DNA of 64,000 bases, taken from Clostridium sp. BJN0001 (GTDB lineage: Bacteria > Bacillota > Clostridia > Clostridiales > Clostridiaceae). The translations under genes were made by a program, and so were the position numbers. Positions 5,317-57,610 of this stretch are shown one piece after another. The stretch covers positions 745,501 through 809,500 of the forward strand of contig NZ_CP094971.1 of the NCBI RefSeq assembly GCF_022869825.1, given 5' to 3'. Below the pieces are notes generated by a model. That model ran no database searches, had not been told where the DNA came from, and saw only the letters and a list, made by a program, of their open reading frames with translations. The number at the start of each line of letters is the position of its first letter. Position 1 is the stretch's first letter.

Positions 5317-5612
5317 TTTCAAATTAACAAAGGACGATGGACAAATGACAAATTAGGAGGTTTCTGCTCAGTCGCAGAAACGTAGAATTTATTGAGCTTT
5401 CGCTTCAGGCGAAAGCTTTAGTTTTTTGCGAGAATCGAAAAAAACCATACAATGAAATTCCGTAGGAATTTCCACCTAAATTGTCCATTGTCCATTGTCA
5501 ATTAGATTGGATTGCCACCTAAATTATCAATTATCCATTATTAATTATCATTTGCACAGTATTTAAACCTGATTTGTCATTTGTCCTTTAACAATTTGTC
5601 ATTTGAACTGTT
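5317..5612 (+). repeat. Multi-hairpin intergenic element, copy A
   Basis: Non-coding element filling the gap after flgG. From left to right: a left arm of GGACAAATGACA-like words (5327-5353); hairpin H1 with stem GTTTCTGC/GCAGAAAC (5360-5381); H2 with stem AGCTTTCGC/GCGAAAGCT and loop TTCAG (5395-5417) plus a T-rich tail; H3 with TTTTTTGCG against an A-rich arm (5422-5444); H4 with GAAATTCC/GGAATTTC (5454-5472); A+T-rich words such as ATTGTCCATTGTC and TTATCAATTATCCATT; and a right arm TTGTCATTTGTCCTTT (about 5575-5590) that is the inverse of the left arm. The same module order recurs near 10060, 19130 and 57200. The remaining bases to 5688 show only the pyrophosphatase leader. Confidence 0.85.
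5395..5427 (+). terminator. Terminator-like hairpin (H2 of copy A) after flgG
   Basis: Nine-pair perfect stem AGCTTTCGC/GCGAAAGCT with a five-base loop, followed by TTAGTTTTTT. This meets the form of a Rho-independent terminator for the flagellar operon. The same hairpin with a T-tract recurs in the other element copies. Confidence 0.7.
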
Positions 5613-5688
5613 CTTTACATTTAAATAATTAACAAGTAAAATAAGAAATGAATATATTAAATGAATTAAAATTTAAGGGGGATTTACA

Positions 5689-7332
5689 TTGAAAGATGTA
5701 GTTTATGTTACTGGACATAAGAATCCGGATTCAGATTCAATATGTGCAGCAATTGCTTATGCAGAATTTAAAAATGATACTACTGATTTAACAGCAGTTC
5801 CAGTAAGACTTGGAAAAGTTAATCAGGAAACACAGTATATTCTTGACAGATTTAAAGTTAAGTCACCAGAATATTTAGAAACATTAAGAGAAAAAGTTGA
5901 AGATTTAAAAATAGATACAGTAGCACCTATTTCTTCAGATATTTCATTAAAAAAAGCATGGAATATAATGAGAGACAGCGGATATAAATCATTACCAGTA
6001 GCTGATAATAACGGAAGACTTACTGGAATAGTATCTGTTTCAAATTTAACTTCTTCATATATGGATATATGGGATAATAATTTATTAGCAAAGAGTAAAA
6101 CTTCTATTGATAATATAATAGATACATTATCTGCAAAATCTATATACATAAATAAAGATACTAAAGTATTTGGTGGAAAAATAACAGTTACAGCAATGAC
6201 ACCTGAAAGTTTAAAAAACATCGTAGAAGAAGGAGACATTGCAATTGTTGGAGATAGAGAAGAAGTACATAAGGCATTAATTGATATAAAAATATCATTA
6301 ATGATAATTACAGGATCTAATAAGCTTGAACCTGGATTATTAGAATCTGCTAAGAAAAATGGAGTTACAGTAATAAGTACACCTCATGATTCTTTCACAG
6401 CTTCAAGACTTATCGTTCAAAGTATTCCAGTAAGCTATGTAATGGTAACTAAGAATGTAATATCATTTTCACTTGATGATTTAGTAGAAGATATTAAGGA
6501 TGTAATGGCACAAACAAGATACCATAGTTATCCTGTAACTGATATTGATGGAAAAGTTGTTGGAACAATTTCAAGATATCATTTAATTTCAAATTATAAA
6601 AAGAAAGTTATTCAAGTTGACCACAATGAAAGAGGACAGTCAGTTGATGGACTTGAAGAAGCACAGATTCTTGAAATAATTGACCATCATAGAATTGCAG
6701 ATATTCAAACAAATAGTCCTATTTACTTTAGAAATGAACCAATAGGAAGTAGTTCAAGTATAGTTGCAAAATGTTTCTTTGAACATGGAATAAGACCATC
6801 TAAGAAGATTGCAGGACTTTTATGTGGAGCTATTATTTCTGATACACTTTTATTTAAGAGCCCAACTTGCACAGAGCAAGATAAAACTTTATGCAAAAAA
6901 CTTGCTGATATTGCAAGAATTGATAATATAGAAGAGTTTGCACAGGAAATGTTTAAGGCAGGAACATCTCTTAAAGGAAAGAGTGTAGATGAAATATTCA
7001 ACTCTGATTTTAAGCCTTTTACAATGGGAGACCATAAAGTTGGTATAGCTCAAGTTAATACAATGGATATAGATGGATTTATGCCTTTAAAAGATGACAT
7101 GATAAAATACATGGGAGATCTAGCAAATGAAAAAGGATATTCTGTTACACTTTTATTATTAACAGATATATTAAAAGAAGGATCTCAGATTTTAGTTGAA
7201 GGAAGCAATCCTGAATTTGTAGAACAAGCTTTTAATGTAAAGCTTGAAGATAAAATGGCATTTTTACCAGGAGTATTATCAAGAAAGAAACAGGTTGTAC
7301 CTCCTCTTACAAATGCAATAAACAACCAGTAA
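5689..7332 (+). CDS. ppaC: Manganese-dependent inorganic pyrophosphatase, family II, with CBS and DRTGG regulatory insert
   Basis: 547-aa cytoplasmic enzyme hydrolysing PPi to two Pi. The DHH catalytic core is split by a regulatory insert. HKNPDSDS at 10-17 gives the first metal ligands and EIIDHHRI near residue 330 the DHH motif; the DHHA2 domain occupies the last ~100 residues. The insert (about 65-310) holds a first CBS repeat (SGYKSLPVADNNGRLTGIV), a DRTGG domain (about residues 205-250) and a second CBS repeat (YHSYPVTDIDGKVVGTISR). In this family AMP/ADP inhibit and ATP or Ap4A activate through the CBS pair. The TTG start has GGGGGA 5 nt upstream. A membrane pyrophosphatase is also present at 55162. 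Confidence 0.93.
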   Translation: MKDVVYVTGHKNPDSDSICAAIAYAEFKNDTTDLTAVPVRLGKVNQETQYILDRFKVKSPEYLETLREKVEDLKIDTVAPISSDISLKKAWNIMRDSGYKSLPVADNNGRLTGIVSVSNLTSSYMDIWDNNLLAKSKTSIDNIIDTLSAKSIYINKDTKVFGGKITVTAMTPESLKNIVEEGDIAIVGDREEVHKALIDIKISLMIITGSNKLEPGLLESAKKNGVTVISTPHDSFTASRLIVQSIPVSYVMVTKNVISFSLDDLVEDIKDVMAQTRYHSYPVTDIDGKVVGTISRYHLISNYKKKVIQVDHNERGQSVDGLEEAQILEIIDHHRIADIQTNSPIYFRNEPIGSSSSIVAKCFFEHGIRPSKKIAGLLCGAIISDTLLFKSPTCTEQDKTLCKKLADIARIDNIEEFAQEMFKAGTSLKGKSVDEIFNSDFKPFTMGDHKVGIAQVNTMDIDGFMPLKDDMIKYMGDLANEKGYSVTLLLLTDILKEGSQILVEGSNPEFVEQAFNVKLEDKMAFLPGVLSRKKQVVPPLTNAINNQ

Positions 7333-7382
7333 ATAATAATTAACAGTTTTATAAGAGAAAACTTCAAAAACTGTGAATTAAT

Positions 7383-7452
7383 AAGGGAAGTATTATATTA
7401 AGATAAAGTTATGCTTTATTTTATGTAATACTTCCTTTTTATTTTTTTAGTA
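7383..7452 (+). terminator. Rho-independent terminator after the pyrophosphatase gene
   Basis: Long stem pairing AAGGGAAGTATTA (from 7383) with TAATACTTCCTTT, with an inner AAAG/CTTT helix and a T-rich tail to about 7450. Ends the pyrophosphatase transcript. Confidence 0.8.
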
Positions 7453-7512
7453 ATAAAAGGAGTAATACAGAACTATATATAAGTATATAAGTTTGTGAGG
7501 AGGAAAAAAATT

Positions 7513-10056
7513 GTGATTGAGAAGAAGGAATTGTCAGCAGGATTATCTACATCTGAAGCTGAAAAGAGGCTTAAAAAATTTGGGCTTAATGAACTTAGAA
7601 GTAAAAAGAAAACTTCAGCCCTAAAAATATTTATATCACAATTTAATGATTTTATTGTATGGGTTCTTATTGCTGCAACAGTAATTTCAGGGATAATAGG
7701 TGATATTGCTGATGCAGTAACTATACTTGTAATAGTTATAATTAATTCACTTTTAGGCTTCATTCAGGAATTTAAGACTGAAAAATCACTTGAAGCACTG
7801 AAAAGTCTTGCTGCGCCAACATGTAAAATCGTAAGAGATGGAAGCATAAAAGTTGTAAATTCAATTTATCTTACAATTGGAGACAGAGTTATTTTAGAGT
7901 CTGGAGACAGAATACCAGCAGATGGAATATTTGTAGAGTGCTCAGGTCTTGTTGTTGATGAATCTCTTCTTACAGGTGAATCTGTAGGTGTAAATAAAGA
8001 TACAAAAAAGAATAACAAAGGATATATGGGAACAACAATTGTAAAAGGAAAAGCTATTTTTAACGTTTCTTCTATAGCAATGGAAACAGAAATGGGAAAG
8101 ATTGCAGGACTTATTGAAAATATTGATGATGAAAAATCTCCACTCAGTAAAAAACTTGATTCACTTGGAAAAGTTTTAGTTGTTATATGCCTTATTGTAT
8201 GTGCAATGGTTACCATACTTGGAATTATTCGTGGAAATAATATAACTGAGATGTTTCTTTTAGGTGTAAGTCTTGCAGTTGCAGCAATACCAGAAGGGTT
8301 AGCCGCAATAGTTACAGTTGCACTTGCACTTGGTGTATCAAGAATGCTTAAAAGAAATGCACTTATAAGAAAGCTTCCTGCAGTTGAAACACTTGGTTGT
8401 ACTTCTGTTATATGTTCTGATAAGACAGGGACTTTAACTCAAAACAGAATGACTGTAAAAGAGGTCTATCTAAATGGTTATAATTATAGGCTCTCTCATG
8501 AGAAACTTAAAGATTACAAAATGTTTATGAAGTCACTTGTATACTGTAATGATTGCAGCTACGATTTTACGAAAAAAAATATGGATGAAGCTTTGCATGG
8601 AGATCCTACAGAAACTGCTCTTATAAGATTGTTTTTTAATGATACAAAAGCTCTTCATACTTTTATAAACTCAGCTGAACGTATATTTGATATTCCATTT
8701 GATTCAACAAGAAAGATGATGTCTGTTATAGTAAAAGAACATGGAAAAGAAAAATGTTACGTAAAAGGTGCACCTGAAAGGGTAATAGAAAAATGCAGTT
8801 TCATACTTGAACATGGAAGAGTTAAAACATTTACTATGGCAAAGAAAAAAGAAGTAAATGAATTTATATCATCAATGTCATCAAGAGCATTAAGGTGTAT
8901 TGCAGCAGCATACAAAGAAGAAAAGTTATATAAAGACAAAAGAATTGAAGAAAATCTTATTTTTATAGGAATAGCAGGAAGTATAGATCCTCCTAGAAAA
9001 GAAGCAGAAGATGCTGTTTTAAAATGTAAACTTGCAGGTATAAAGCCTGTTATGATAACTGGAGATCATCCAAACACTGCCCTTGCAATTGCTAAATCTT
9101 TAAACATATGTACAAGTAAAGATCAAGTAATGACAGGTGATGATCTTAATAAAATTTCTGATGATGTTTTAAGCAAAAAAACAGATAAAGTAAGGGTATT
9201 TGCAAGGGTATCTCCAAACCATAAGTTAAGAATTGTAAAAGCCTTTAAAAGTAAAGGAAATATAGTTGCAATGACAGGAGATGGAGTAAATGATGCTCCA
9301 GCAATAAAAGAAGCTGATATAGGAATAGCTATGGGACTTTCAGGGACAGACGTTACTAAAGAAGCTTCGTCTATGATACTTATGGATGATAATTTTAAGA
9401 CAATAGTATCTGCGGTAGAAGAGGGAAGAATAATTTATGATAATATAAGAAAATTTATAAGATATCTTCTTTCATGTAATCTTGGAGAAGTTCTTACAAT
9501 GTTTCTTGCAAGTATTTTTTATCTGCCAAACCCATTAAATCCAATTCAGATACTTCTTGTAAATCTTGCAACAGATGGTCTTCCTGCAATAGCACTTGGT
9601 GTTGATCCAGCAGATAAAGACATAATGAACCAGATGCCGAGAAAGAAAAATGAAAGCATATTTGCAAGAGGTCTTGTTGAAAAGATATTAATAAGAGGAT
9701 CGTTAATAGGAATATGTACTCTTCTTGCCTTTATGACAGGAAGATACTTTAGAATGGATTTAAAGACATGTAGAACACTTGCTTTATGTACACTTGTATT
9801 TTCACAGCTTATTCATGTATTTGAATGTAGGTCCGAAAGACACTCAATATTTGAGATAAATTTATTTAGCAATATTTATCTTTTAGGAGCTGTAGTTATT
9901 TCAATAATTATGATATGCTGCGTTTTATATATTCCTTTCTTAAGAGTAATATTTCATACAGTTTCACTTAATATTGCACAAATTTTGATTGTAATATTTT
10001 ATTCTGGAATAATAGCTCTTATAAATAGTGTATATTTACTTATAAAAAGCAAGTAA
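7513..10056 (+). CDS. Cation-translocating P-type ATPase, probably Ca2+ (PMR1/SERCA-like, P2)
   Basis: Membrane ATP-driven cation exporter, 847 aa from the GTG at 7513. The upstream in-frame GTG at 7495 overlaps the AGGAGG that serves this start. Order: N-terminal cation-ATPase domain; TM1-2; actuator domain with LTGES (~153); TM4 with AAIPEGLA, the PEGL of Ca2+ pumps; phosphorylation site DKTGTLT (Asp ~303); nucleotide domain with KGAPE; hinge MTGDGVNDAP (~587); and a C-terminal TM bundle. TM5 SCNLGEVL and TM6 NLATDGLPA carry the Asn/Glu and Asn/Thr/Asp positions that bind both Ca2+ ions in SERCA, so Ca2+ is favoured. Mg2+, Na+ or mixed specificity cannot be ruled out. Stands alone. Confidence 0.9.
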   Translation: MIEKKELSAGLSTSEAEKRLKKFGLNELRSKKKTSALKIFISQFNDFIVWVLIAATVISGIIGDIADAVTILVIVIINSLLGFIQEFKTEKSLEALKSLAAPTCKIVRDGSIKVVNSIYLTIGDRVILESGDRIPADGIFVECSGLVVDESLLTGESVGVNKDTKKNNKGYMGTTIVKGKAIFNVSSIAMETEMGKIAGLIENIDDEKSPLSKKLDSLGKVLVVICLIVCAMVTILGIIRGNNITEMFLLGVSLAVAAIPEGLAAIVTVALALGVSRMLKRNALIRKLPAVETLGCTSVICSDKTGTLTQNRMTVKEVYLNGYNYRLSHEKLKDYKMFMKSLVYCNDCSYDFTKKNMDEALHGDPTETALIRLFFNDTKALHTFINSAERIFDIPFDSTRKMMSVIVKEHGKEKCYVKGAPERVIEKCSFILEHGRVKTFTMAKKKEVNEFISSMSSRALRCIAAAYKEEKLYKDKRIEENLIFIGIAGSIDPPRKEAEDAVLKCKLAGIKPVMITGDHPNTALAIAKSLNICTSKDQVMTGDDLNKISDDVLSKKTDKVRVFARVSPNHKLRIVKAFKSKGNIVAMTGDGVNDAPAIKEADIGIAMGLSGTDVTKEASSMILMDDNFKTIVSAVEEGRIIYDNIRKFIRYLLSCNLGEVLTMFLASIFYLPNPLNPIQILLVNLATDGLPAIALGVDPADKDIMNQMPRKKNESIFARGLVEKILIRGSLIGICTLLAFMTGRYFRMDLKTCRTLALCTLVFSQLIHVFECRSERHSIFEINLFSNIYLLGAVVISIIMICCVLYIPFLRVIFHTVSLNIAQILIVIFYSGIIALINSVYLLIKSK

Positions 10057-10275
10057 AATAACAAAGAACAAATGACAGTCCAAATGACAAAGCACAAATG
10101 ACAGTCTAAATGACAAAGCACAAATGACAAATGACAAATGTGGATGTTTCTGCTCAAAATCGCAGAAACGTAGAATTTATTGAGCTTTCGCTTCAGGCGA
10201 AAGCTGTAGTTTTTTGCGAGAATCGCAAAAAAACCATACAATGAAATTCTGAAAGAATTTCCACCTAAAATTATC
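10057..10275 (+). repeat. Multi-hairpin intergenic element, copy B, left part (interrupted by IS)
   Basis: Same module order as copy A. An expanded left arm has an imperfect ~27-bp tandem repeat built on ACAAAGCACAAATGACA (10063-10140). Then H1 GTTTCTGC/GCAGAAAC (10146-10169, larger loop), H2 AGCTTTCGC/GCGAAAGCT (10183-10205), H3 TTTTTTGCG/CGCAAAAAA (~10211-10234) and H4 GAAATTCT/AGAATTTC (10243-10261). The element is cut at TTATC 10271-10275 by an insertion sequence and resumes at 11646. Confidence 0.85.
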
Positions 10276-10338
10276 GGAGGGCTCCCCGTTAAATGGACAA
10301 TATTAAGTTAATACTCGTTAATTCTTAATATTCTGTAA

Positions 10339-11280
10339 TTATGCTGCTAATTTCATTAGATAGTAATCATGAGGAGGAATATATCCAATAGATGAATGTA
10401 TTCTCTCATGATTATATCTATAAACAAAATCACCTACATCATTTTTTATGTGATCTAAATTCCAATATATCATTCCGGTAAGGCATTCATCTTGAAGATA
10501 TCTATGATATGATTCTATGAATGCATTATAATTTGGACTGTGTACTGGAATTCTTTCATGAAGAACACCTTCATCAAGGCATCCTTTCTCAAAAACTCCA
10601 CTAATAAATTGACTACCGTTATCGGTACGAAGTACTACTGTTTTATCTTTAGCATAGTTTAAGCCTCTGTTATATAGAGCTTCTAACATAACTTTTTTAG
10701 CAACAGAACCTGTAGCAGATAAGTCAATTGAATATGCCACTATTTCTCTATCAAAAACATCGATTATTGAAGTTATATAGGCTGTTTTTTTATTACCAGC
10801 AATAAATGCATATTTGATATCCATTTGCCATAATTGATTAGAAGCTGTAACTTTTCTGCTTTCGCAGGTACGTGACATTCTTCTTTTCTGTCTTTTATAG
10901 TAGTTTCCTAATAAATTTAAATTTTTCATTAGTCTTCTAACTTTCTTCTTATTAATTTTTAAATTGTACTTCTTTCTAAATCTTAACTCACCGGTAACTT
11001 TTTTATATCCATATTTTCGCGATGTTTTCTTACTTCTAATTTCTGTTATATACTTTTGAATAGTTATATCAGATATTTTGATATTATCGAATGTTAAACT
11101 GTATCCAGGGACCTTTCTACCTACGTTAGCGTAGCTTCTTTTAACAATATATTTCTGTTTTGAATAATATGTGGATCTAGAAATCCGTAATATTTTAAGT
11201 ACTATTGTTACTTTATATCCAAGTTTAATCCATTTGTGGGCACTTAAAATTTTATATTCTAGTGTTATTTGTTTTTTTTT
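10339..11280 (-). pseudogene. IS3 transposase OrfB, interrupted by a frameshift
   Basis: The 3' part (10339 to about 11030) encodes the rve/DDE integrase core in one frame: Asp in WQMDIKYAF, Asp in RTDNGSQF and Glu in NAFIESYHRYLQDE, with the usual YNHERIHSSIGYIPP tail. The N-terminal HTH_21 part (about 11040-11280, with AHKWIKLGYKV and ILRISRSTYYSKQ) is in another frame that stops at 10983-10985. The expected junction KYGYKKVTGELR continues only in the DDE frame. So one indel near 11024-11050 separates DNA binding from catalysis, and the element is probably immobile unless rescued in trans. A sequencing error in an A-run is possible. Confidence 0.78.
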
Positions 11281-11564
11281 AGAAGATCTTCAAGAATAGC
11301 TATTTTTAGTTTTTGCTCCTCAATTTTTTCCTGAGCTTTTTTGTATTCACGCTTATAATTAGGTATCAATTTTGTATCTTTTGGTTCTTTTGGTTCTAGT
11401 GTTTGCCTATATCTACGGTAATTATTTACCCAATAGCTTAATTGTACAGCATTAATATCATATTTTTTAGCAATAAGTATATTGCTTCCAGACTCTAAAA
11501 CTTCAGTAACAAATTTAACTCTTTCTTTCTCTGTAAATGTTCTTCTAAATTTAATTTTCTCCAT
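11265..11564 (-). CDS. IS3 transposase OrfA (HTH protein)
   Basis: 99-aa helix-turn-helix subunit. The ATG at 11564 follows AGGAGGTC; an upstream in-frame ATG at 11588 precedes that ribosome site and is unlikely. KFRRTFTEKERVKFVTEVL and the following INAVQLSYWVNNYR are the HTH and its wing. The C-terminal EKIEEQKLKIAILEDLLKK is the leucine-zipper helix of IS3 OrfA. The 3' end passes a nine-A run, a typical slippery site for programmed frameshifting into OrfB, whose N-terminal frame overlaps here. Confidence 0.85.
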   Translation of the reverse strand: MEKIKFRRTFTEKERVKFVTEVLESGSNILIAKKYDINAVQLSYWVNNYRRYRQTLEPKEPKDTKLIPNYKREYKKAQEKIEEQKLKIAILEDLLKKNK

Positions 11565-11645
11565 ATAAAAAGACCTCCTAATTATCATATTTATATATTA
11601 ATTATTTTAATTAATATTGTCCAATCTAATTAGGGGGGCTATAAG

Positions 11646-11728
11646 TTATCAATTATCCATTATTAATTCTCAATTTGACTGGAATTTTAACATGATTTGT
11701 CATTTGTCATTTAACAATTTGTCATTTT
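11646..11728 (+). repeat. Multi-hairpin intergenic element, copy B, right part
   Basis: TTATCAATTATCCATT words followed by the right arm TTTGTCATTTGTCATTT and AACAATTTGTCATTTT, the same order as the end of copies A and D. It continues the element broken at 10275. It ends at the stop of the deacetylase gene on the opposite strand. Confidence 0.8.
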
Positions 11729-11729
11729 C

Positions 11730-12632
11730 CTACAGTTCGTCTAGTGATTTAAATTCATATCCCTCGTCTTTTAATTGCGAAAGTACAGATTTTAAAATTT
11801 TTGCGTTTGTATCAGATACTGCGTGAAGAAGCATTATGCATCCAGGATGACTTCCATTTGTTATTTTTTTTACTGCAAAATCATCAGAAGGCTGATCATG
11901 AATAAGCCAGTCTTTATATGCAAAACTCCAGAATATTGTTTTATATCCAAGCTCTTTTGTCATCTCAAGAGATTTTTGTGAGTATTTACCCATAGGAGGT
12001 CTAAAATATTTTTTCATTTCTTTGCCTGTTACACGCTTGTAAGCATCTTCAACCCCTGTAAATTCAGCTTTAAATTTAGAAGGATCAGTTATCTGAGCCA
12101 TTGATGGATGATGAACTGAATGATTTCCAACTATGTGTCCTTCGTCAGCCATTCTTTTTATAAGTTCAGGTTCTTTGTCTATATACGGCTTTACAACGAA
12201 AAAGGCTGCAGGTATATTAAGTTCTTTAAGAGTGTCAAGTATCTTAGGTGTGTTTCCATTTTCATACCCTTCATCAAAGGTAAGATATATAACTTTTTCA
12301 TCTGTATTTTTTAAATAAAATGCATCATTCTCTTTTAAAAATGAAAATGATTCTCTTGGACATTCAGAAGGATTTCCTTTTCCCTTGCTTACATAATACC
12401 AGTTAAGTTCACCTTTAGGATTAATTGCCGCTGAAAAGATGCTATCAAGATCTTCTGCATCTTTTAAGTCGCCTATAATATCATCATTTATTACACATTC
12501 GTCATCGCAAGCTTCTACTGCTGATGAATTTGCACTTTCATTATTATTTTCTATAGCTTTTATATTTGTTTTGGGAATTATAAAAGACATAATGAGTGGA
12601 ATTATTAAAAATTTTATTGAATTCCTATTCAA
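11730..12632 (-). CDS. pdaA: Polysaccharide deacetylase, PdaA-type (delta-lactam-forming de-N-acetylase)
   Basis: 300-aa exported carbohydrate esterase 4 protein. The N-terminal segment (FLIIPLIMSFII) is a signal peptide or anchor. The NodB domain starts with VIYLTFDEGYENG; the TFDEGYENG form, rather than TFDDGP, is typical of PdaA, which removes N-acetyl from muramic acid during spore-cortex muramic-delta-lactam synthesis. Metal ligands are the Asp of this motif and the histidines of GNHSVHH; FRPPMGKYS and LLHAVS complete the family motifs. I place the start at TTG 12632, six bases after GAGGTG; the upstream GTG 12641 is part of that ribosome site. Implies a spore former. Confidence 0.88.
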   Translation of the reverse strand: MNRNSIKFLIIPLIMSFIIPKTNIKAIENNNESANSSAVEACDDECVINDDIIGDLKDAEDLDSIFSAAINPKGELNWYYVSKGKGNPSECPRESFSFLKENDAFYLKNTDEKVIYLTFDEGYENGNTPKILDTLKELNIPAAFFVVKPYIDKEPELIKRMADEGHIVGNHSVHHPSMAQITDPSKFKAEFTGVEDAYKRVTGKEMKKYFRPPMGKYSQKSLEMTKELGYKTIFWSFAYKDWLIHDQPSDDFAVKKITNGSHPGCIMLLHAVSDTNAKILKSVLSQLKDEGYEFKSLDEL

Positions 12633-12736
12633 AACTAACACCTCATTTATTATAAATTTATATTTTTAGTTTTTACAGAAAGTAAAAATATAATCAAGAG
12701 AAAATATGGATATTTATTAAAATCATTTTTTGAAAG

Positions 12737-12765
12737 TTGAAAATTAAGTATATCTAGAGTATAAT
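12737..12765 (+). promoter_or_regulatory. Sigma-A-type promoter for ychF
   Basis: TTGAAA (12737-12742), 17-bp spacer, TATAAT (12760-12765), 47 bp before the ychF start codon. Confidence 0.8.
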
Positions 12766-12812
12766 TTTATAGATATATTAAACATGAAATATATGAAAGG
12801 AATGTACATATA

Positions 12813-13910: not shown

Positions 13911-13960
13911 TAAAAATATAAAATATTAATTTCTGTATTTATAATTCTACATTCTTAATT

Positions 13961-13992
13961 AATAAAGAGGCTGCGGAAGCCTCTTTATTTTC
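13961..13992 (+). terminator. Rho-independent terminator after ychF
   Basis: Perfect 12-pair stem AATAAAGAGGCT/AGCCTCTTTATT with a GCGGA-type loop and T-rich tail. Confidence 0.9.
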
Positions 13993-14062
13993 TTTAAGTA
14001 GATTTTATTTTTAAATTTTGGTAAAATAATATTTATTAAATAGAAGGTGGGTGATTTATTTA

Positions 14063-15790: not shown

Positions 15791-15818
15791 TTAACTCTTT
15801 ATAATGGGGGAGATATTT

Positions 15819-16946: not shown

Positions 16947-16969
16947 ATAATAAAGATAATTGAAAGTGA

Positions 16970-19125: not shown

Positions 19126-19392
19126 GGGAATACCAAAGGACAAAGGACAAAGGACAATTGACAAATGTTGAGGTTTCTGCTTGGACGCAGAAACTTTGAA
19201 TTTGATAGAATTGATAGTGAGCTAATGTATAATTGTGGTTGTTTCTGCTTAAGTCGCAGAAACTTTGTATTGAGCTTTCGCTTCAGGCGAAAGCTTTAGT
19301 ATTTTGCGAGAATAGCAAAATACCATAAAATGAAATTCCTACGGAATTTCTACATTATTTGTCATTTGTCATTTGAAAGTTTGTCATTTATA
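19126..19392 (+). repeat. Multi-hairpin intergenic element, copy C
   Basis: Left arm of AAAGGACAAAGGACAA words (19135-19166). H1 occurs twice: GTTTCTGC/GCAGAAAC at 19172-19193 and 19241-19263, with different loops. H2 AGCTTTCGC/GCGAAAGCT is at 19273-19295. H3 is TATTTTGC/GCAAAATA (~19301-19322), in which both arms differ from copies A and B in a paired way. H4 GAAATTCC/GGAATTTC is at 19333-19351. The right arm TTTGTCATTTGTCATTTG (19359-19376) closes it. It abuts the pyr promoter. Confidence 0.85.
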
Positions 19393-19395
19393 TTA

Positions 19396-19435: not shown

Positions 19436-19590
19436 AAACCTTTAATTTGATCCAGAGAGATTAATAAGGAAGTTAAAATTTATTATATATTTTTATCCGG
19501 CTTTTTATAATTTTTATAATTTTATTTGCCGAAGATTAAGTAATGAAAGTAATTCTGCCTTCCTATTAATTTGGGAAGGCTTTTTTTTGC
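19436..19590 (+). promoter_or_regulatory. PyrR-type transcription attenuator in the pyrB leader
   Basis: 19439-19469 folds as a stem CCTTTAAT/ATTAATAAGG enclosing TTGATCCAGAGAG, which matches the PyrR binding loop (UCCAGAGAGG-type in Bacillus pyr leaders). Downstream, GCCTTCC/GGAAGGC (19557-19580) followed by T8 is the terminator. GGAAG at 19468-19472 can pair with CTTCC of the terminator's 5' arm, so an antiterminator competing with the terminator is possible. In the known mechanism, UMP-bound PyrR stabilises the upstream stem and causes termination. PyrR itself is not in the window. Confidence 0.78.
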
Positions 19591-25523: not shown

Positions 25524-25534
25524 AAACATATCGA

Positions 25535-25632
25535 TTGATCATATGACTGACGGAAGTGGAGTATACCACGGGAAGTATGATTAAAAAAGGCCGACCGTCT
25601 GGGCGAAAAGTTCAGACGTCGGCTTTTTTTAA
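25535..25632 (+). ncRNA. ZTP riboswitch (pfl motif) with terminator platform
   Basis: Matches the pfl/ZTP consensus. P1 is GATCATA/TATGATT (25537-25543 with 25576-25582). The internal loop is GACTGACGGAA, then GTGG/CCAC and GGGAAG; the 3' pseudoknot part is CCGACCGTCTGGGC (25591-25604). The 3' part is also the 5' arm of a terminator stem with CAGACGTCGGC and T7 (to 25630). In the class, ZTP/ZMP binding, a signal of 10-formyl-THF shortage, prevents termination. The motif was first named for its position before pfl genes, exactly the case here. Confidence 0.92.
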
Positions 25633-31737: not shown

Positions 31738-33659
31738 GTGTGCCCAGCATGGGCACGTGCTAATCGGTGAAAGTCCGTAATGGGGGCTGATAGTGCCAAC
31801 CATTAGCTTAAGACAAGGGTGTCCATCGCAAGGTGGAATCTGAAGGAAGTCGGCGGCAAAGCCTTGGTCTGAGGAATACGAACCACATCTGAGGCTCAAT
31901 TCCGTGGGTGAACTTGCTATACAAAGTAAAGCCCAATAACTATCCGAAACGGAAAGAGTAAATGTGGCAGATAGATGAGGTGAAAGTACGTGTTCTTACC
32001 TGGGGAGGTCTGATAGATAAGTGCCTAAAGAAATTAAGTTTCTAGGTACAACCTATATAGTGATATATAGCTGAACTATCAGAAGTCAGCAGAAGTCATA
32101 GTAACTCCGCTAATCGCGATAGCGGATGAAGGACTGAACGTTAGGAGGTTTACAACTTTGGATAAATCAAAGAAATTGCAAAGAAAGCAGAAAACTCAAT
32201 ATAGAGACCAATTGATGGAAGTAGAAGTGGAACTTCAAGGTAAATCAAAGGTGCCGAGCAATCCTATGGTTTTACCAAATAGAGAAAGCGTAAACGATGG
32301 AGCATTTGATACTAGTAGATTACTTGAAGAAGTTCTAGAAAGAAATAATATGCTTTCAGCACTTAAAAGAGTAATTAGCAATAAAGGTAGCCATGGTGTC
32401 GATGGAATGAAGACCGATGAACTTCGTGAGCATATCAAGAAACACTGGGAAACAATTAAAGCTAAACTACTAGAAAATAGATATAACCCATCACCTGTAA
32501 GGAGAAAAGAAATATCCAAGCCAGATGGTGGAATTAGATTATTAGGGATACCAACTGTACAAGATAGATTGATTCAACAGGCTATTGCTCAAGTTTTATC
32601 TAAAATATATGAACCTTTATTTTCTGAAAATAGTTTCGGATTCCGTCCTCGTAGAGGAGCAAAGGATGCTATAACAAAATCAAAACAATATATAAATCAA
32701 GGAAATAGATGGGTTGTAGATATGGATTTAGAGAAATTCTTTGATAAAGTTAATCATGATATTCTTATGAGTAAACTTGAAAAGAAGATACAAGACAAAA
32801 GATTGTTAGCATTAATAAGAAAATACCTCAAAAGCGGAATTCTCATTAATGGGGTTTCAGTAACAAGTGAAGAAGGAACACCGCAAGGTGGTCCGTTAAG
32901 TCCATTATTAGCTAATATAATGTTAGATGAATTAGATAAAGAACTTGAAAGACGAGGTCACAAATTTTGCAGATATGCAGATGATAATAATGTATATGTC
33001 AAAAGTAAAAGAGCAGGACTTAGAGTAATGAAATCTATGACAAATATAATTGAAAATAATTTAAAGCTTAAAGTAAATAAGGATAAAAGTGCAGTAGACT
33101 TTGTATCTAAACGAAAATTTTTAGGATTTTCGTTTTACTTTTCGAGAAGCGGAGCAGAAATAAGAATCCATGAGAAATCCCTAAAGAGATTTAAGGAGAA
33201 GGTCAAATTCTATACTAATAGAAATAAAGGAATTAGCATGGAATACAGACTATTAAAATTAAATCAAATCACAAGAGGGTGGATTAATTATTATGGAATT
33301 GCTAACGCTCGCGGAAAGCTAGTAGAACTAGACAAATGGATTAGAAGAAGACTAAGAGCTTGCATATGGAAACAATGGAAGAAGATTAGCACTAAACAAA
33401 GAAATTTAGCTAAACTAGGAATCAATAAATACAAAGCATGGGAATATGCAAATACAAGAAAAGGCTATTGGAGAATCTCCAAAAGCCCTATACTAAACAA
33501 CTCTCTAAATAATAAATACCTAGAATCTCTAGGATTTATTAGTCTAACACAAACATATCAAATGATACATTAATTTCTGATGAACCGCCGTATACCGAAC
33601 GGTACGTACGGTGGTGTGAGAGGACGCTAAATAAAATAATTATTTAGCTCCTACTCGAT
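31738..33659 (+). mobile_element. Group IIC intron (about 1.9 kb) with encoded maturase
   Basis: The 5' end GTGTG (31738-31742) is the usual group II boundary and the following ~400 nt are highly structured (for example CCCAGCATGGGCACGTGCTA and GGTGAAAGTCCGTAATGG segments). The 3' end has domain V (GAACCGCCGTATACCGAACG..TACGGTGGTGTGAGAGG, 33581-33624) and domain VI with a bulged A (CCTACTCGAT) ending about 33659. The encoded reverse transcriptase resembles the Geobacillus GsI-IIC enzyme and lacks an HNH endonuclease. Insertion directly behind a terminator stem and T-tract is the known targeting habit of IIC introns. Looks intact. Confidence 0.92.
32158..33573 (+). CDS. ltrA: Group II intron reverse transcriptase/maturase (IIC type)
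   Basis: 471-aa intron-encoded protein for splicing and retrohoming. TTG start behind TAGGAGGTT. RT motifs: GVDGMKTDELREH, KPDGGIRLLGIPTVQDRLIQ, FGFRPRRGAKDA, VDMDLEKFFDKVNHD, EGTPQGGPLSPLLANIML, catalytic YADD (~273-276), KFLGFSF. The maturase X domain follows (RGWINYYGIAN, IRRRLRACIWKQWK, TRKGYWRISKSPILNNSL). No HNH domain at the C-terminus, as in class C. The ~60-residue N-terminal extension before LLEEVLERN is longer than in GsI-IIC. No truncation or lost motif seen. Confidence 0.95.
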   Translation: MDKSKKLQRKQKTQYRDQLMEVEVELQGKSKVPSNPMVLPNRESVNDGAFDTSRLLEEVLERNNMLSALKRVISNKGSHGVDGMKTDELREHIKKHWETIKAKLLENRYNPSPVRRKEISKPDGGIRLLGIPTVQDRLIQQAIAQVLSKIYEPLFSENSFGFRPRRGAKDAITKSKQYINQGNRWVVDMDLEKFFDKVNHDILMSKLEKKIQDKRLLALIRKYLKSGILINGVSVTSEEGTPQGGPLSPLLANIMLDELDKELERRGHKFCRYADDNNVYVKSKRAGLRVMKSMTNIIENNLKLKVNKDKSAVDFVSKRKFLGFSFYFSRSGAEIRIHEKSLKRFKEKVKFYTNRNKGISMEYRLLKLNQITRGWINYYGIANARGKLVELDKWIRRRLRACIWKQWKKISTKQRNLAKLGINKYKAWEYANTRKGYWRISKSPILNNSLNNKYLESLGFISLTQTYQMIH

Positions 33660-43643: not shown

Positions 43644-43664
43644 TATTTTAGGAGGAGAAAACTA

Positions 43665-44300: not shown

Positions 44301-44301
44301 C

Positions 44302-46236: not shown

Positions 46237-46412
46237 AAAATTATCACCTCTTTTTAGTTTATCCAAAGAAAAAACATAGTATGTACCTTATTGTATTATT
46301 GAGAAAAAAAATAAATAGTTGTAAACTATAAGTAAAAACAAAAGTGAAGGTTAAATTACTGATATACAAATGATGTAAAAAAATCTTTTATTTGTTTTAG
46401 GGGGTAAAGAGG

Positions 46413-48038: not shown

Positions 48039-48048
48039 GGAGGAACTT

Positions 48049-49818: not shown

Positions 49819-49856
49819 ATTAGATTTTACTCTCCAAAAGTTACTGCTTTTCTTAG

Positions 49857-49885
49857 TTGCAAACAAGTAAGAAAAATAATATAAT
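49857..49885 (+). promoter_or_regulatory. Promoter of gpmI
   Basis: TTGCAA (49857-49862), 17-bp spacer, TATAAT (49880-49885). The flanks AAGTTACT (49839) and AGTAACTT (49908) are inverse copies that may fold around it. Confidence 0.65.
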
Positions 49886-49943
49886 AAACCTGTATTAAAC
49901 AGTAGAAAAGTAACTTATATATAAATAATTTGGAGGTAAAAGA

Positions 49944-51476
49944 ATGTCAAAGAAACCAGTAATGTTAATGATATTAGATGGATTTGGTTTAGCACCTAAA
50001 TCAGAAGGGAATGCAGTTAGTTTAGCTAAAAAACCAAATTTTGATGCATTAGTTGAAAAATATCCTCATGCACATTTAAAAGCAAGCGGACTTGCAGTTG
50101 GACTTCCAGAAGGACAGATGGGAAATTCAGAAGTTGGACATTTAAATATAGGTTCAGGAAGAGTAGTTTATCAGGAACTTACAAGAATTACAAAAGCTAT
50201 TGATGATGGTGAGTTCTTTGAAAATGAAGTAATAAAAAAAGCTATGGAAAACGCTAAAAAACCTGGCGCTGCACTTCATTTAGTAGGCCTTTTATCAGAT
50301 GGAGGAGTTCATTCACACATCAATCATTTAAAAGGACTTTTAAGATTTGCTAAAAAAGAAGGAATTCAGAATGTATATGTTCATGCATTTATGGACGGAA
50401 GAGATGTTCCACCATCTTCAGGAAAGACATACATAACTGAAATAGAAGATTTTATGAAAGAAATCGGAGTAGGAAAGATTGCAACTGTATCAGGAAGATA
50501 TTATGCAATGGATAGAGATAATAGATGGGAAAGAATAGAACTTGCTTATAATGCAATAGTTTTAGGAAAAGGTGAAGAAGCTTCAAGCGCAATAGAAGCA
50601 CTTGATAAATCATATCATGATAATAAAACTGATGAATTCGTACTTCCTACAGTAGTAACTGAAGATAAACATGCTACAGCAAAGGTTAAAGACGGAGATT
50701 CAGTAGTATTCTTTAACTTTAGACCAGATAGAGCAAGAGAATTAACAAGAGCTATAAACGATAAAGAATTTGCAGGATTTAAGAGAAATACATTAAACTT
50801 AAAATTCGTAACAATTACTCAGTATGATAAGACATTAGAAAGAGTTAGTGTTGCATATACTCCACAGACTTTAGTTAATACTCTTGGAGAATATGTAAGC
50901 AAGAACGGACTTAAACAACTTAGAATTGCAGAAACTGAAAAGTATGCACATGTTACATTCTTCTTTAATGGAGGAGTTGAAAAAGAAAATCCTGGTGAAG
51001 AAAGAAAAGTTATTCCATCACCAAAGGTTGCAACTTATGATTTAAAGCCAGAAATGAGTGCATATGAAGTTACAGATGAATTATTAAAGAAATTAGATGA
51101 AGATAAATATGATATGATCATATTAAACTTTGCAAATGCTGACATGGTTGGACATACAGGAATTGTAAGTGCAGCAGTTAAGGCTATTGAGGCTGTAGAT
51201 ACATGTCTTGGAAAAGTTTATAAGAAAGTTCTTGAAAAAGACGGATGCGTATTTATAACAGCTGATCATGGAAATGCAGAAACAATGATCGATACTTCAA
51301 CAGGAAATCCATTCACAGCACATACAACAAATGAAGTTCCATTCATTTATGTTGCAAATGATGCTGCAAATAAGACATTAAAAGATGGAAAGCTTGCAGA
51401 TATAGCACCAACAATGCTTAATCAGCTTGGACTTGATAAACCTGCTGAAATGACAGGAGAAAACTTATTAAAATAA
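49944..51476 (+). CDS. gpmI: 2,3-bisphosphoglycerate-independent phosphoglycerate mutase
   Basis: 510-aa Mn2+-dependent glycolytic enzyme interconverting 3- and 2-phosphoglycerate. Metal Asp12 in LMILDGFG, catalytic Ser62 in [18 protein letters not shown], and the C-terminal TADHGNAE with [10 protein letters not shown] ligands. Ribosome site TTGGAGGT. Eno lies 1.8 kb downstream, but the usual gap-pgk-tpi genes are not in between. Confidence 0.96.
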
Positions 51477-51515
51477 GCATATAATTGCGATAAAACTTAG
51501 AAACTAGAATTTATT

Positions 51516-51574
51516 AGCTTTCGCTTAAATGGTATGACATATAAAATGCCATATCATAATGCGAAAGCTTTTTA
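51516..51574 (+). terminator. Terminator after gpmI, diverged H2-type hairpin
   Basis: Outer stem AGCTTTCGC/GCGAAAGCT, identical to H2 of the multi-hairpin elements, extended by an inner arm (ATGGTATGACAT against ATGCCATATCAT) and followed by T5. The upstream GAAACTAGAATTTATT echoes the sequence between H1 and H2. Probably a remnant or relative of the element. Nothing else seen in 51477-51641. Confidence 0.85.
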
Positions 51575-51641
51575 TATATTTAAAATGTGAATATTAAATA
51601 TAATTTATAAGCAATAATCAATTTTTTGGGGGGAGATTTTT

Positions 51642-52568
51642 GTGACAAAATATCTATTTGTGACGTTAAATCAAATATTTGTAATGTCTTTTATTATAGC
51701 TATTGGATATGTTTTGTATAGGAAGAAGATAATAAATGATGATGGCTCTGAGGAAATTTCAAATTTTCTTATAAAAGTTGTTACACCGTGTGTAATTATT
51801 TCATCATATCAGAGAGAATTTGATTTAAAAAGTGCAAAAATGCTTGGATTATCTTTTGTAGTGGCTATAATTACCTTTTTGATACCAATAATAATATCAT
51901 CTGTTATTTTTAAAAATAATAAAAAAGTATATAAAAATGATGCAAAAATGTGTCTTATTTTTTCAAATGATGGATTTATGGCAGTGCCTCTACTTCAATC
52001 ACTTCTTGGAACGATAGGGGTGTTTTTAGGCTCGGCTCATATTGTTGTAGGTACGGTAATAATATGGACATATGGTGTTTTTATGTTATCTAAAGATAAA
52101 AAATCAATTAATTTAAAAAATATAATATTTAATGTAGGAACAATATCTATGGTGTTTGGAATTCTACTATTTATATCGCCTATAAAACTTCCTAAACCTA
52201 TTATTACGACATTTACATATATAGCAAATGTAAATACGCCTTTAGCTATGATAGTGCTTGGAGTATTTTTAGCTCAGACTGATATATTATCTATAATTAA
52301 AGATAAAAATACATATAAAATATGTTTTTATAAATTAATACTTATCCCATCTGCAATACTTCTTTGTATGTATCTTTTATCAGTTGATAAAACAGTTGCA
52401 TTAGTTCTTATTATAGGTTCTGCAGCACCTACTGCGGTAATTGCTGCAATGTTTGCTAAAACATTTGAAACAGAATATATTTTTTCAACTAAAATGATAG
52501 CGGCAACAACTATATTTTCGATGATAACTCTTCCGTTTTTTATTACGCTTACGCAAATAATATTATAG
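51642..52568 (+). CDS. AEC-family (auxin efflux carrier-like) transporter
   Basis: 308-aa membrane protein with about ten hydrophobic segments. Typical AEC phrases: FLIKVVTPCVIISSYQ (TM2), NDGFMAVPLLQSLLG, ANVNTPLAMIVLGVFLAQ and the C-terminal GSAAPTAVIAAMFAK. AEC carriers move organic acids such as malate or malonate. GTG start after GGGGGGAG. A second, diverged AEC gene is at 60545. Confidence 0.9.
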   Translation: MTKYLFVTLNQIFVMSFIIAIGYVLYRKKIINDDGSEEISNFLIKVVTPCVIISSYQREFDLKSAKMLGLSFVVAIITFLIPIIISSVIFKNNKKVYKNDAKMCLIFSNDGFMAVPLLQSLLGTIGVFLGSAHIVVGTVIIWTYGVFMLSKDKKSINLKNIIFNVGTISMVFGILLFISPIKLPKPIITTFTYIANVNTPLAMIVLGVFLAQTDILSIIKDKNTYKICFYKLILIPSAILLCMYLLSVDKTVALVLIIGSAAPTAVIAAMFAKTFETEYIFSTKMIAATTIFSMITLPFFITLTQIIL

Positions 52569-52632
52569 AATTTATCATAAATAAGCAAAAATATAAATAA
52601 ATATTATTAGATAAATTATCAGGAATGGTTGT

Positions 52633-53217
52633 ATGAAAAAAAATTTTGCATATTCAGCTGACTTTGATGAAATTACAGAAAATGAATTTAGGAAAGCAAA
52701 GTACCTTGGGAGAGGAAATAATGGTATAGTTTATGAACTCCCAAACAATAAAGTAATAAAGATATTTTTAAAGAGAAAAGTATGCAAAGACGAGGGCAGT
52801 ATTCTTTATAAAACTAATGGCTCTAAATATTTTCCTAAATTGTATGCAAGGGGAAGCCTTTATGTTATAAGGGCAAAAGTATATGGAGAAAGGCTTGATA
52901 AATATATAAAAAAATATGGATTAAGTGATGAGCTTTCTTTAAATGTATATAATCTTTTAAATGAATTTAAAAGATTAAAATTTTTAAGACTTGATACACG
53001 ATGTAAAGATATTTATGTCGATTCTGATCAATCTGTAATGTTAATTGATCCTAAAAAAGCGTATAAAAGAAAAGTTGATTATCCACGGCATCTTATGAAA
53101 GGGCTTGATAAGATAGGAGCACTTGATACTTTTCTTTCACAGGTAGGAAAAATAAATAAGAAAAAGCAGATAAAATGGATAAAAAAGTATGCAAGATATA
53201 AAGAAACATTAAATTGA
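52633..53217 (+). CDS. Small protein-kinase-like protein, degenerate
   Basis: 194-aa protein with a kinase N-lobe: glycine loop GRGNNG (residues ~26-31) and VIKIF (Lys) followed by a possible alphaC Glu. The catalytic loop reads RLDTRCKDIYVD in place of HRDxxxxN, and DFG is replaced by IDPKKAY, so the family metal Asp may remain but the loop is atypical. It resembles short Firmicute kinase-like proteins (YrzF/RIO-like). Activity is uncertain; it may be a pseudokinase or small-molecule kinase. Ribosome site unclear (AGGAATGG). Sits between AEC and eno. Confidence 0.7.
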   Translation: MKKNFAYSADFDEITENEFRKAKYLGRGNNGIVYELPNNKVIKIFLKRKVCKDEGSILYKTNGSKYFPKLYARGSLYVIRAKVYGERLDKYIKKYGLSDELSLNVYNLLNEFKRLKFLRLDTRCKDIYVDSDQSVMLIDPKKAYKRKVDYPRHLMKGLDKIGALDTFLSQVGKINKKKQIKWIKKYARYKETLN

Positions 53218-53280
53218 TGAATATTAAATTTTAAAATACTAATAATATTAAAGTGATAAAAAAAAAGTCTTTATTATTAG

Positions 53281-54588
<1,308 letters not shown>

Positions 54589-54604
54589 AATTACAAAAAA
54601 TATT

Positions 54605-54639
54605 AAGGTAATAGTTTGAAAAAAACTATTACCTTTTTT
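54605..54639 (+). terminator. Terminator after eno
   Basis: Perfect 13-pair stem AAGGTAATAGTTT/AAACTATTACCTT followed by T6. Confidence 0.93.
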
Positions 54640-54771
54640 GGAATTTCTGTTATAATAAAACTAAGCTTAAATATTTTAAGATTTATGATAATGTCCAGTT
54701 GAAATATTCTTGATATTATGTTATGATAACAGATGTGTAATTTTTGGTATAAACTAAAGGAGGTGTTACCT

Positions 54772-55011
54772 TTGGATCTTAAAAGTATTTTACTTGTTAT
54801 AGATATTATTTTAGGTTTAATTGTTATAGTTACAATCTTTATGCAACCAAGTAAAGCTGATGCATTAAGTGGATTAATTCAAGGTGGAAGCAACGATACG
54901 TTTTATTCTAAAAATAAATCAAGAACAAAAGAAGTTATTCTTATAAGGCTCACATCAGTTTCTATGATTTTGTTTGCGATAAATACAACAATATTGAATT
55001 TAATAAAATAG
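54772..55011 (+). CDS. secG: Preprotein translocase subunit SecG
   Basis: 79-aa membrane protein with two helices (SILLVIDIILGLIVIVTIFM, and the VILIRLTSVSMILFAINT one) and the family linker QGGSNDTFYSKNKSRTKE. TTG 54772 after AGGAGGTG is the start; the frame extends back to 54733 without a ribosome site. In most clostridia secG is followed directly by rnr and smpB; here hppA and a repeat element lie between. Confidence 0.92.
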   Translation: MDLKSILLVIDIILGLIVIVTIFMQPSKADALSGLIQGGSNDTFYSKNKSRTKEVILIRLTSVSMILFAINTTILNLIK

Positions 55012-55022
55012 TTAAAATATTT

Positions 55023-55050
55023 AAGCTGCTTCATTGAAAGTAGCTTTTTT
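55023..55050 (+). terminator. Probable terminator after secG
   Basis: Stem AAGCTGCTT/AAAGTAGCTT (one wobble/mismatch) around CATTG, followed by T6. Confidence 0.7.
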
Positions 55051-55161
55051 ATTTACTTATGTAAAGTAGAAACAAGGTTTATACGCAAAAATGTAAACGT
55101 TTATCGAAAAATGTCGTAAAATCTTAATATTAGGCTTGAATATAGTATGAGGGGTGATTTT

Positions 55162-57189
55162 ATGAATTTACTATTTATTCCTATCATTATAGGTGTAATA
55201 GCAATGGTTGTTGTAGCATTTATTTCTCTAGGTATCTTGAAGAAAAATGCAGGTGACGAAAGAATGAAGGAAGTATCTTCATATATTGAGGAAGGGGCAC
55301 TTGCTTTTTTAAAGAAAGAATATTCGTATCTTATTATTTTTATTGCAGTTGTAGCAGTTTGCATACTTATATTTTTAAGCTGGAAAACAGCTATAGCATT
55401 TGTTTTTGGAGCTGCTTTTTCAATATCAGCTGGATTTATAGGAATGAGAATTGCCGTAAAATCTAATGTTAGGACAGCAGAAGCTGCAAAAAGCGGAATA
55501 TCAGATGCACTTTCAATTGCATTTTCTGGTGGTACTGTTATGGGACTTTCAGTTGCAGGGCTTGGACTTATAGGCCTTGGAATATTCTCTATTGCATTTA
55601 ATTTAAATGCTGAATATATTACAGGATTTGGTCTTGGAGCTTCTTCAATTGCATTATTTGCAAGAGTTGGAGGAGGAATATATACAAAGGCTGCTGATGT
55701 TGGAGCTGACCTTGTTGGAAAAGTCGAAGCTGGAATACCAGAAGACGATCCTAGAAATCCTGCAGTAATTGCAGATAATGTTGGAGATAATGTTGGTGAT
55801 GTTGCAGGTATGGGAGCAGATCTTTTTGAATCATATGTAGGCTCAATTATATCAGCTATAACTTTAGGGGGAGTTTTAGTTAAAACATTTGGAAATAATA
55901 TTGTTACATTTCCACTTATTTTATCTGCAATAGGTATTATATCGTCACTAATAGGAATTATTTTTGTGAAGACATATAAGGGAGATAATCCTCAAAAAGC
56001 ATTAAATATGGGAAGTGCTGTTTCGGGTGGATTAGTTGTTATATTTGGATTTATAGCATGTAGAACTTTATTAAATGATGCAAAATTATTTATACCGGTA
56101 ATTGCAGGTCTTGTAGTAGGATTATTAATTGGAAAACTTACAGAAGTTTATACTTCATCAGATTATAAATCAGTAAAATCAATTGCAGATGAATCTAAAA
56201 CAGGTGCTGCAACAAATATTATTGCAGGTCTTTCAGTTGGAATGAAATCAACAGTTATGCCTATAATATTAATAGCAGTAGGAATATTAATTTCTTATTT
56301 TTCAGTAGGTGGAGCATCAAATGTTGATATTGGTCTTTATGGAATAGCTTTATCTGCAGTTGGTATGCTTGCCACAACAGCAATAACAGTTGCAGTTGAT
56401 GCATATGGACCTATATCAGATAATGCAGGTGGAATAGCAGAAATGTGTGGCCTTGATGAAGGTGTTAGAGATATAACAGATAAACTTGATTCTGTTGGAA
56501 ATACAACAGCTGCAATAGGAAAAGGATTTGCAATAGGTTCAGCAGCACTTACAGCTCTTGCACTTTTTGCATCTTATGCACAGACAGTTAATTTATCTCA
56601 GATAAATCTTTTAAATCCTTTAACATTAGTTGGAATATTAATAGGAGGAATGCTTCCATTTTTATTTGGAGCTCTTACAATGCAGGCAGTAGGAAAAGCT
56701 GCAGCACAGATGGTTGAAGAAGTAAGAAGACAGTTTAAAGAGAAAAAAGGGATACTTGAAGGAAAAGAAAAACCAGATTATTCTAAATGTGTTTCTATAT
56801 CTACAAATGCAGCATTAAGAAAGATGATTCTACCTGGAATACTTGCAATATTAGTTCCAATATGTACAGGCTTACTTTTAGGAACTGAAGCATTAGCAGG
56901 ACTTATAGGTGGAGGAGTTGTTACAGGTGTTCTTCTTGCAATAATGATGGCAAATGCAGGAGGTGCATGGGATAATGCTAAGAAATATATTGAAACAGGA
57001 GTAAATGGAGGAAAAGGTAGTGAACCTCATAAGGCAGCTGTTGTAGGAGATACAGTAGGAGATCCTTTTAAAGATACTTCAGGTCCATCAATGAATATTT
57101 TAATCAAATTAATGACAATAGTATCAGTTGTATTTGCACCTATTATTGCAAAATATGGTGGAATGCTTTTAGGACTGTTTATGAAATAA
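55162..57189 (+). CDS. hppA: Membrane-bound ion-pumping pyrophosphatase (K+-dependent type)
   Basis: 675-aa protein with about 16 membrane helices that uses PPi hydrolysis to pump H+ and/or Na+. Active-site motifs: [40 protein letters not shown] (split over both), DNAGGIAEM, and the C-terminal [15 protein letters not shown]. In [14 protein letters not shown] the Ala replaces the Lys of K+-independent enzymes, so the K+-dependent class is expected. H+ versus Na+ cannot be settled here. ATG 55162 follows GGGGTGA. With the soluble ppaC at 5689, the cell has two PPi outlets. Confidence 0.95.
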
Positions 57190-57610
57190 CAATCCAAATG
57201 ACAAAGCACAAATGACAAAGGACAAAGAGGGAAGTTTCTGCTCGAATCGCAGAAACGTAGAATTTATAAGCTTTCGCTTCAGGCGAAAGCTTTATTTTTT
57301 TGCGAGAACCTTAATCCAAATGACAAAGGAAAAAGGACAAATGACAAAAATGGTTGTTTCTGCTCAGTCGCAGAAACTAAAATATATGAGCTTTCGCTTC
57401 AGGCGAAAGCTTTATTTTTTGCGTAAAACGCAAAAAAAACCATACGATGAAATTCCGTATGAATTTCCACCTAAATTATCAATTATCCATTATTAATTCT
57501 CAATTGCATAGCATTTCCATCTAAATTGTCAATTAGAATTTATTTCCATATTATTTGTCCATTGTCCTTTAACAATTTGTCCTTTAGCACGTCATTTGTA
57601 CTGTCCTTTG
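57190..57610 (+). repeat. Multi-hairpin intergenic element, copy D (core duplicated)
   Basis: Two tandem cores. First: left arm words (57195-57228), H1 (57234-57256), H2 (57269-57291) with T7. Second: more GGACAAATGACA words (57315-57350), H1 (57355-57376), H2 (57390-57412) with a T-tract, H3 TTTTTTGCG/CGCAAAAAA (57415-57437) with loop TAAAA instead of AGAAT, and H4 (57449-57467). Then ATTATCAATTATCC words, ATTGTCAATTAG, and the right arm (TTTGTCCATTGTCCTTT and TTTGTCCTTT, 57554-57596). The rest to 57747 is the rnr leader with TATAAT at 57640 and a short palindrome GTAGTATATTACTATAC. Confidence 0.85.

Follow-up and report, generated by a model that had tools for sequence, protein, structure and literature searches.

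The 64,000-nucleotide stretch analyzed here (the window, positions 745501-809500 of a single 2,688,791-base contig) carries four copies of what is probably a species-restricted, non-autonomous, composite palindromic repeat of the MITE, BOX or REP kind, one that has spread into the 3' ends of genes and serves there as a cap and as a target for insertion sequences (ISs). Species-restricted here means absent from the 67 other genomes of the genus that were searched, with one genome taken per species. In our best reading the family is new, being REP-like in its use by ISs, BOX-like in its build and terminator-like in its second hairpin.

Copies A to D share one order of modules: a left arm, the hairpins H1, H2, H3 and H4, and a right arm (Table 1). 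The H1 stem is GTTTCTGC/GCAGAAAC, H2 reads GCTTTCGC-TTCAG-GCGAAAGC, and the stems of H3 and H4 are TTTTTTGCG/CGCAAAAAA and GAAATTCC/GGAATTTC. Each arm is built from 7-nt words in succession, AAATGAC, AAAGGAC and AAAGCAC on the left and their reverse complements on the right, with AATTGAT and AATTGAC as an alternative vocabulary. A first-pass annotation of the window had reported the four copies, this module order and six instances of H1, and all were found where it had placed them. The copies are real but less plain than it described them, as H3 of A and C and H4 of D each contain a mismatch, the right arm of B is split by an IS3-family element, and D consists of a partial unit and a full element, one behind the other.

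Table 1. Modules of the four window copies (window positions) and copies of two ISs that lie in the repeat (genome positions)
Feature	Position	Strand	Remark
Copy A, whole element	5327..5614	+	left arm 5327-5359, right arm 5473-5614; outer arms pair
Copy A, H1 hairpin	5360..5381	+	
Copy A, H2 hairpin	5396..5416	+	followed by T-run; terminator-like
Copy A, H3 hairpin	5422..5444	+	one stem mismatch
Copy A, H4 hairpin	5454..5472	+	
Copy B	10060..11727	+	split by IS3-family insertion in right arm
Copy B, H1 hairpin	10146..10169	+	
Copy B, H2 hairpin	10184..10204	+	terminator-like
Copy B, H3 hairpin	10210..10232	+	
Copy B, H4 hairpin	10243..10261	+	CT/AG variant
IS3-family insertion in copy B right arm	about 10275..11643	-	HTH_Tnp_1 and rve ORFs; 4-bp flanking repeat TTAT
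Copy C, whole element	19138..19392	+	two H1 modules
Copy C, first H1	19173..19194	+	
Copy C, second H1	19241..19263	+	
Copy C, H2	19274..19294	+	terminator-like
Copy C, H3	19300..19322	+	TATTTTG...CAAAATA variant; one mismatch
Copy C, H4	19332..19350	+	
Copy D, partial unit then full element	57193..57606	+	partial unit (arm, H1, H2, half of H3) 57193-57310
Copy D, first H1	57234..57256	+	
Copy D, first H2	57270..57290	+	terminator-like
Copy D, second H1	57356..57377	+	
Copy D, second H2	57390..57410	+	terminator-like
Copy D, H3	57415..57437	+	
Copy D, H4	57449..57467	+	one mismatch
IS110, complete copies	genome 329974, 375062(-), 450259, 517751		also L048:1752-3199
DDE_Tnp_1 element, copies in H4 palindrome	genome 379484, 456936(-), 461495(-)		

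Copy A is predicted to fold into the four hairpins within a long outer stem. Compared with dinucleotide shuffles its z is -6.4 for RNA and -7.3 for DNA, values that exclude structure by chance. Its pairing arms amount to terminal inverted repeats, a trait of MITEs. In 33 of 42 copies the left and right arms belong to the same word class (Fisher p 0.011). Pairing of arms within copies is barely above pairing across copies (p 0.058), and covariation of the outer arms is weak.

To determine how common the repeat is, we built a covariance model from 42 copies and ran it on the genome, scoring 150 of 4365 first-look candidates. At E up to 0.001 it identified at least 56 places, 42 of them its own training copies. 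With four tandem partners subtracted and two H1-only loci added, these represent at least 54 loci in the 2.69-Mb genome, or about 0.4% of it (median length 212 nt). As the first-look candidates were scored only in part, the copy counts are lower bounds. H1 is a module in variable tandem number, present 0, 1, 2 and 3 times in roughly 1, 31, 18 and 4 loci (a fuzzy count), and truncated and IS-split copies also occur. The loci are crowded, with 39 of the 54 between 270 and 520 kb, a region making up 9% of the chromosome in which 5 would be expected; 20,000 uniform draws never placed more than 18 loci in any 250 kb. Local hopping or the import of a segment, for example from another strain, could possibly account for the crowding.

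Beyond this genome the family was not encountered. Across 67 other genomes of the genus, one per species, the model had no match among the 55 best candidates scored in each, and the arm pattern, with 40 matches here, had 0 in the same 67. H2 with up to one mismatch was found in none of 39 relatives. In a collection of 84,980 species that leaves out the records of this genome, the H2 pattern turned up at 8 places; the DNA fetched around them contained neither H1 nor arms, and model scores were at most 25.5 bits. They were therefore rejected as relatives of the repeat in other genera. Copy D had no match in plasmids or phages by distant blastn, and viral contigs had 0 matches to the exact H2 pattern. 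Consistent with the earlier remark that the elements fit no named family, Rfam gave no match on them in the window at the gathering threshold (copy D alone drew 11 weak matches, all below gathering scores), and no title or abstract found in the literature described a four-hairpin repeat family of this kind. The ends of the elements vary, and no clean case of an empty site or target duplication of the repeat's own was found; at the one gene that was compared, the nearest relatives have about 77% identity.

The claim that the modular hairpins lie downstream of genes, made from the window copies, now has the support of 54 loci, with gene contexts taken from simple ORF calls. The repeat is co-oriented with the upstream gene at 46 of the 54 loci and is not at the other 8. 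Between tandem genes, 28 copies have the direction of the upstream gene and 7 the opposite one; convergent genes flank 18 sites and divergent genes 1. A second gene heuristic on the same fetched DNA gave 15 convergent to 2 divergent spacers with the element against 7 to 12 without. The distance from stop codon to arm was taken at the 41 of 46 co-oriented loci that lie within 400 nt. Its median is 5 nt and its range -47 to 397 nt, with 24 of the 41 loci no more than 30 nt away, and the negative values arise partly from arm words overlapping the gene end. The stop codon itself falls within an arm word at some convergent sites. Counted by eye, 9 of the 18 convergent sites are filled from stop to stop and 9 are not. 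Convergent spacers without the element are also often tiny (-22, 1, 3, 55, 93, 141 and 308 nt), so a flush fit need not mean replacement and simple insertion may suffice.

When two stretches were scanned for terminator-like sites, all five H2 hairpins of the window headed the lists. Like intrinsic terminators they have a GC-containing stem followed by a T-run, and they lie downstream of a gene in its own orientation. Between copy A or D and the next gene there is no other terminator-like site on the + strand. H2 and its T-run may thus stop transcription of the preceding gene. In the case of copy D that gene encodes an H_PPase, and in the loci of 5 of 9 relatives the orthologue is followed after its stop, in the place of D, by an ordinary hairpin, mostly with a clear T-run (both judged by eye). 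Terminator-like hairpins of the host persist beside some copies (by eye, to the right at 290009 and to the left at 2302051 and 679803), so H2 is not always the sole terminator. The hairpin at 379202 was rejected as a leftover host terminator, as it lies inside a DDE_Tnp_1 element.

Three resident ISs have inserted specifically in the repeat, a trait of REP sequences: an IS110-family element in 4 of 4 complete copies, the DDE_Tnp_1 element in 3 of 3 and an IS3-family element in 3 of 5. In these searches 40 of 101, 40 of 173 and 40 of 115 first-look candidates were scored, respectively. Inspected by eye, none of the three has ends that match the arms of the repeat, and no autonomous relative of the repeat turned up among them. 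The DDE_Tnp_1 element (3.6e-31), which we read as belonging to IS4, is present in at least three copies. Each of the three sits in the 3' arm of H4, between flanking repeats about 10 bp long, AGGAATTTCT or its complement. At least five full copies of the IS3-family element are present, together with three further short or weak matches, and the three copies in arms include the one in copy B; 4-bp flanking repeats were seen by eye in 4 of 5.

The IS110-family element encodes a DEDD_Tnp_IS110 domain (3.6e-24). At least four complete copies were found in a search with its non-coding end, all four in arms after GTCCT, and a 65-bp fragment likewise follows an arm GTCCT. The right ends read ...TTGCT and continue with TTAACAATTTG in three copies and TTGTCATTT in one. 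CT is therefore the shared core. The non-coding end has a strong predicted fold (z -4.5) and carries CATTTGTCCT, with TTAAAG 32 nt further on. Among Markov shuffles, 0.475% contained the 9-mer ATTTGTCCT, 0.06% contained the 10-mer and 0.02% had the 9-mer together with TTAAAG no more than 60 nt away; the motifs had been picked after looking at the sequence. The 10-mer is fully matched at 2 of the 4 IS110 sites. Judging from these matches, CATTTGTCCT and TTAAAG form a candidate target loop or guide of a bridge RNA for the arms, which the RNA of the IS110 may use. Homologues of the IS110 in plasmids are less than 60% identical (the listed ones about 40%) and the non-coding end has no match there; viral contigs held no homologue. 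In a separate locus at genome positions about 1921452-1923109 (L099), one copy of the repeat has in its left arm an IS3-like element distinct from the first, followed by a fragment of an IS110.

Small hairpins embedded in heptamer arrays have a reported precedent in cyanobacteria, where the SDR of Nostoc are said by Elhai et al., in 2008, to be hairpins with compensatory changes within tandem heptamers; at 21-27 nt and in cyanobacteria, they differ from the repeat described here. REP, BIME and REPIN sequences are likewise intergenic and palindromic, and REP sequences draw the same three IS families, if DDE_Tnp_1 is read as IS4. REP sequences are described as hotspots for IS3, IS110 and IS4 elements (PMC1525189), compensatory changes are described for REPIN hairpins (PMC3116915), and BIMEs are reported as bidirectional terminators (PMC2965389). 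Unlike them, the present repeat has four different hairpins and arms made of words. The transposase domain of RAYTs (Y1, PF01797) had 0 matches in this genome and matches in 5 of 14 control genomes. With no Y1_Tnp found, mobilization by a RAYT was rejected, as was the idea of a REPIN served by a RAYT of this genome. BOX of Streptococcus pneumoniae is described as composite and modular, with one module in variable tandem number and a predicted structured RNA (PMC3049150). The composite build is shared, with H1 as the module that varies in number, whereas the modules and the arms differ from those in that description of BOX. SPRITE, also of S. pneumoniae, is given there as an interspersed repeat resembling a Rho-independent terminator (PMC3049150), a single long stem with a U-tract in contrast to four hairpins with arms. 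Among clostridia, Clop-1 of C. perfringens and Clot-1 of C. tetani are also intergenic stem-loop repeats, and their description as 93 and 74 nt long sets them apart (PMC2267715).

We also examined how far the hairpin stems change in pairs, counting on 42 aligned cores. The H1 and H2 stems are nearly invariant, without a complementary double change in either, and the constancy noted earlier for the H1 stem is upheld. H3 has T-A in 23 and A-T in 14 copies at columns 68-91, and C-G in 32, A-T in 6 and T-A in 1 at columns 75-84. H4 has C-G in 36 and T-A in 5 at columns 109-113. The changes on both sides of H3 and H4 that the first-pass annotation had seen are therefore real (T-A/A-T, C-G/A-T and C-G/T-A), though few. 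A fourth pair, 66-93, has two complementary double-change cells, 6 unpaired cells and 15 gaps. As many as four pairs with double changes arose in 109 of the 500 shuffles; one of the slid controls (-2) has four as well, in 12 cells compared with 28 in the stems. When 1711 column pairs were ranked by an APC-corrected G-test, the three well-populated pairs came 2nd, 4th and 6th, and unpaired columns took ranks 1, 3 and 5. Rank 7 is the stem pair 40-59, which changes together to an A/C mismatch. Among the 45 loci having both H3 and H4, each of the four possible combinations of their types is represented (35, 4, 4 and 2 loci), which means that modules have been exchanged between copies or that the changes recur. 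Single changes gave G-T in 5 cells, A-C in 8 and other mismatches in 21, and wobble is thus not favoured. The three-base loops of H4 occur in both senses (GTA 11/TAC 6, TGC 10/GCA 1, GAA 5/TTC 1, TGT 1/ACA 1); by eye, H1, H2 and H3 have no inverted loops in the 42 copies. Loop inversion was set aside as a sign of cruciform processing, as it is confined to these short H4 loops and may be chance.

The paired changes support paired stems, and they fit selection on RNA, selection on a DNA palindrome and copying from arm to arm alike. The first-pass annotation had taken them as pointing to selection on a folded RNA or cruciform. Three double changes that assort between copies without a G-U preference are no proof of selection on RNA. 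That the four hairpins are a structured regulatory RNA, folding in the 3' part of the mRNA and kept paired for a role in stability or protein binding, is in our view improbable. The strong fold of copy A and the three complementary double changes are what it would predict, and stem cells are paired in 97.4% of cases versus 95.0% in shuffles, with 0 of 500 as high; yet neither H1 nor H2 ever shows a complementary double change, G-T cells are not favoured over A-C cells, one coupled change leads to a mismatch, the four window copies adjoin genes with no relation to each other, and truncated and IS-split copies exist. Upkeep at the DNA level has a better though still minority chance, and is compatible with the preferred reading. 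Here template switching or gene conversion would copy one arm of a stem to the other and produce paired changes without function. Template switching, a DNA-level process, is described as able to restore pairing in RNA stems (PMC8794818). The changes from C-G to A-T and from T-A to A-T need no G-U step, and the H3 and H4 types assort between copies, as such copying would allow. The absence of inverted loops from H1, H2 and H3 in the 42 copies counts against it, with those of H4 perhaps due to chance, and each change may be a single event, which leaves few events to judge.

The repeats could also be kept mainly as terminators of the host, with recombination having swapped native terminators for copies and no transposase involved. 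The flush position, the orientation and the terminator-like H2 suit this account, as does the fact that A and D are followed by no further terminator-like site. We nevertheless consider it unlikely, for a need for termination does not explain the extreme clustering and the arms, H1, H3 and H4 would be superfluous for that task.

If the preferred reading of a mobile, non-autonomous repeat is correct, the element would spread by transposition in trans, with a transposase that, at a guess, has since been lost or was not recognized. Its arm words AAATGAC and AAAGGAC, with a period of 7, could give stop codons in any frame, as 7 is not a multiple of 3 and repeated AAATGAC words place TGA in successive frames by sequence arithmetic. 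H2 and the T-run would then act as an intrinsic terminator for the gene in front, while the arms and the H4 palindrome would provide the target sites of the three resident ISs, one of which, the IS110, appears to carry a matching guide in its non-coding end. A more elaborate version, with a rather slim chance of being right as a whole, has the repeat as a mobile cap for gene ends, in which stops in all frames and a terminator replace native terminators and offer a harmless dock for co-resident ISs, one of them with a bridge-RNA guide tuned to the arm words. In either form the repeat would be a Gram-positive counterpart to REP, drawing the same IS families and occupying places in which an insertion is expected to cause little damage. 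For the IS110, the known rules for bridge RNAs allow a direct test. The stems of the repeat are also a warning that a few paired changes among repeat copies can mimic evidence for RNA.

The window holds other structured elements. Pieces of a group II intron lie at 31822-32134 and 33583-33659, around an ORF at 32158-33573. A ZMP/ZTP riboswitch is found at 25533-25611 and a SAM riboswitch at 61541-61642. Before the carbamoyltransferase gene at 19571 there is a terminator-like hairpin, at 19557-19580, which we take to be a possible pyr attenuator.
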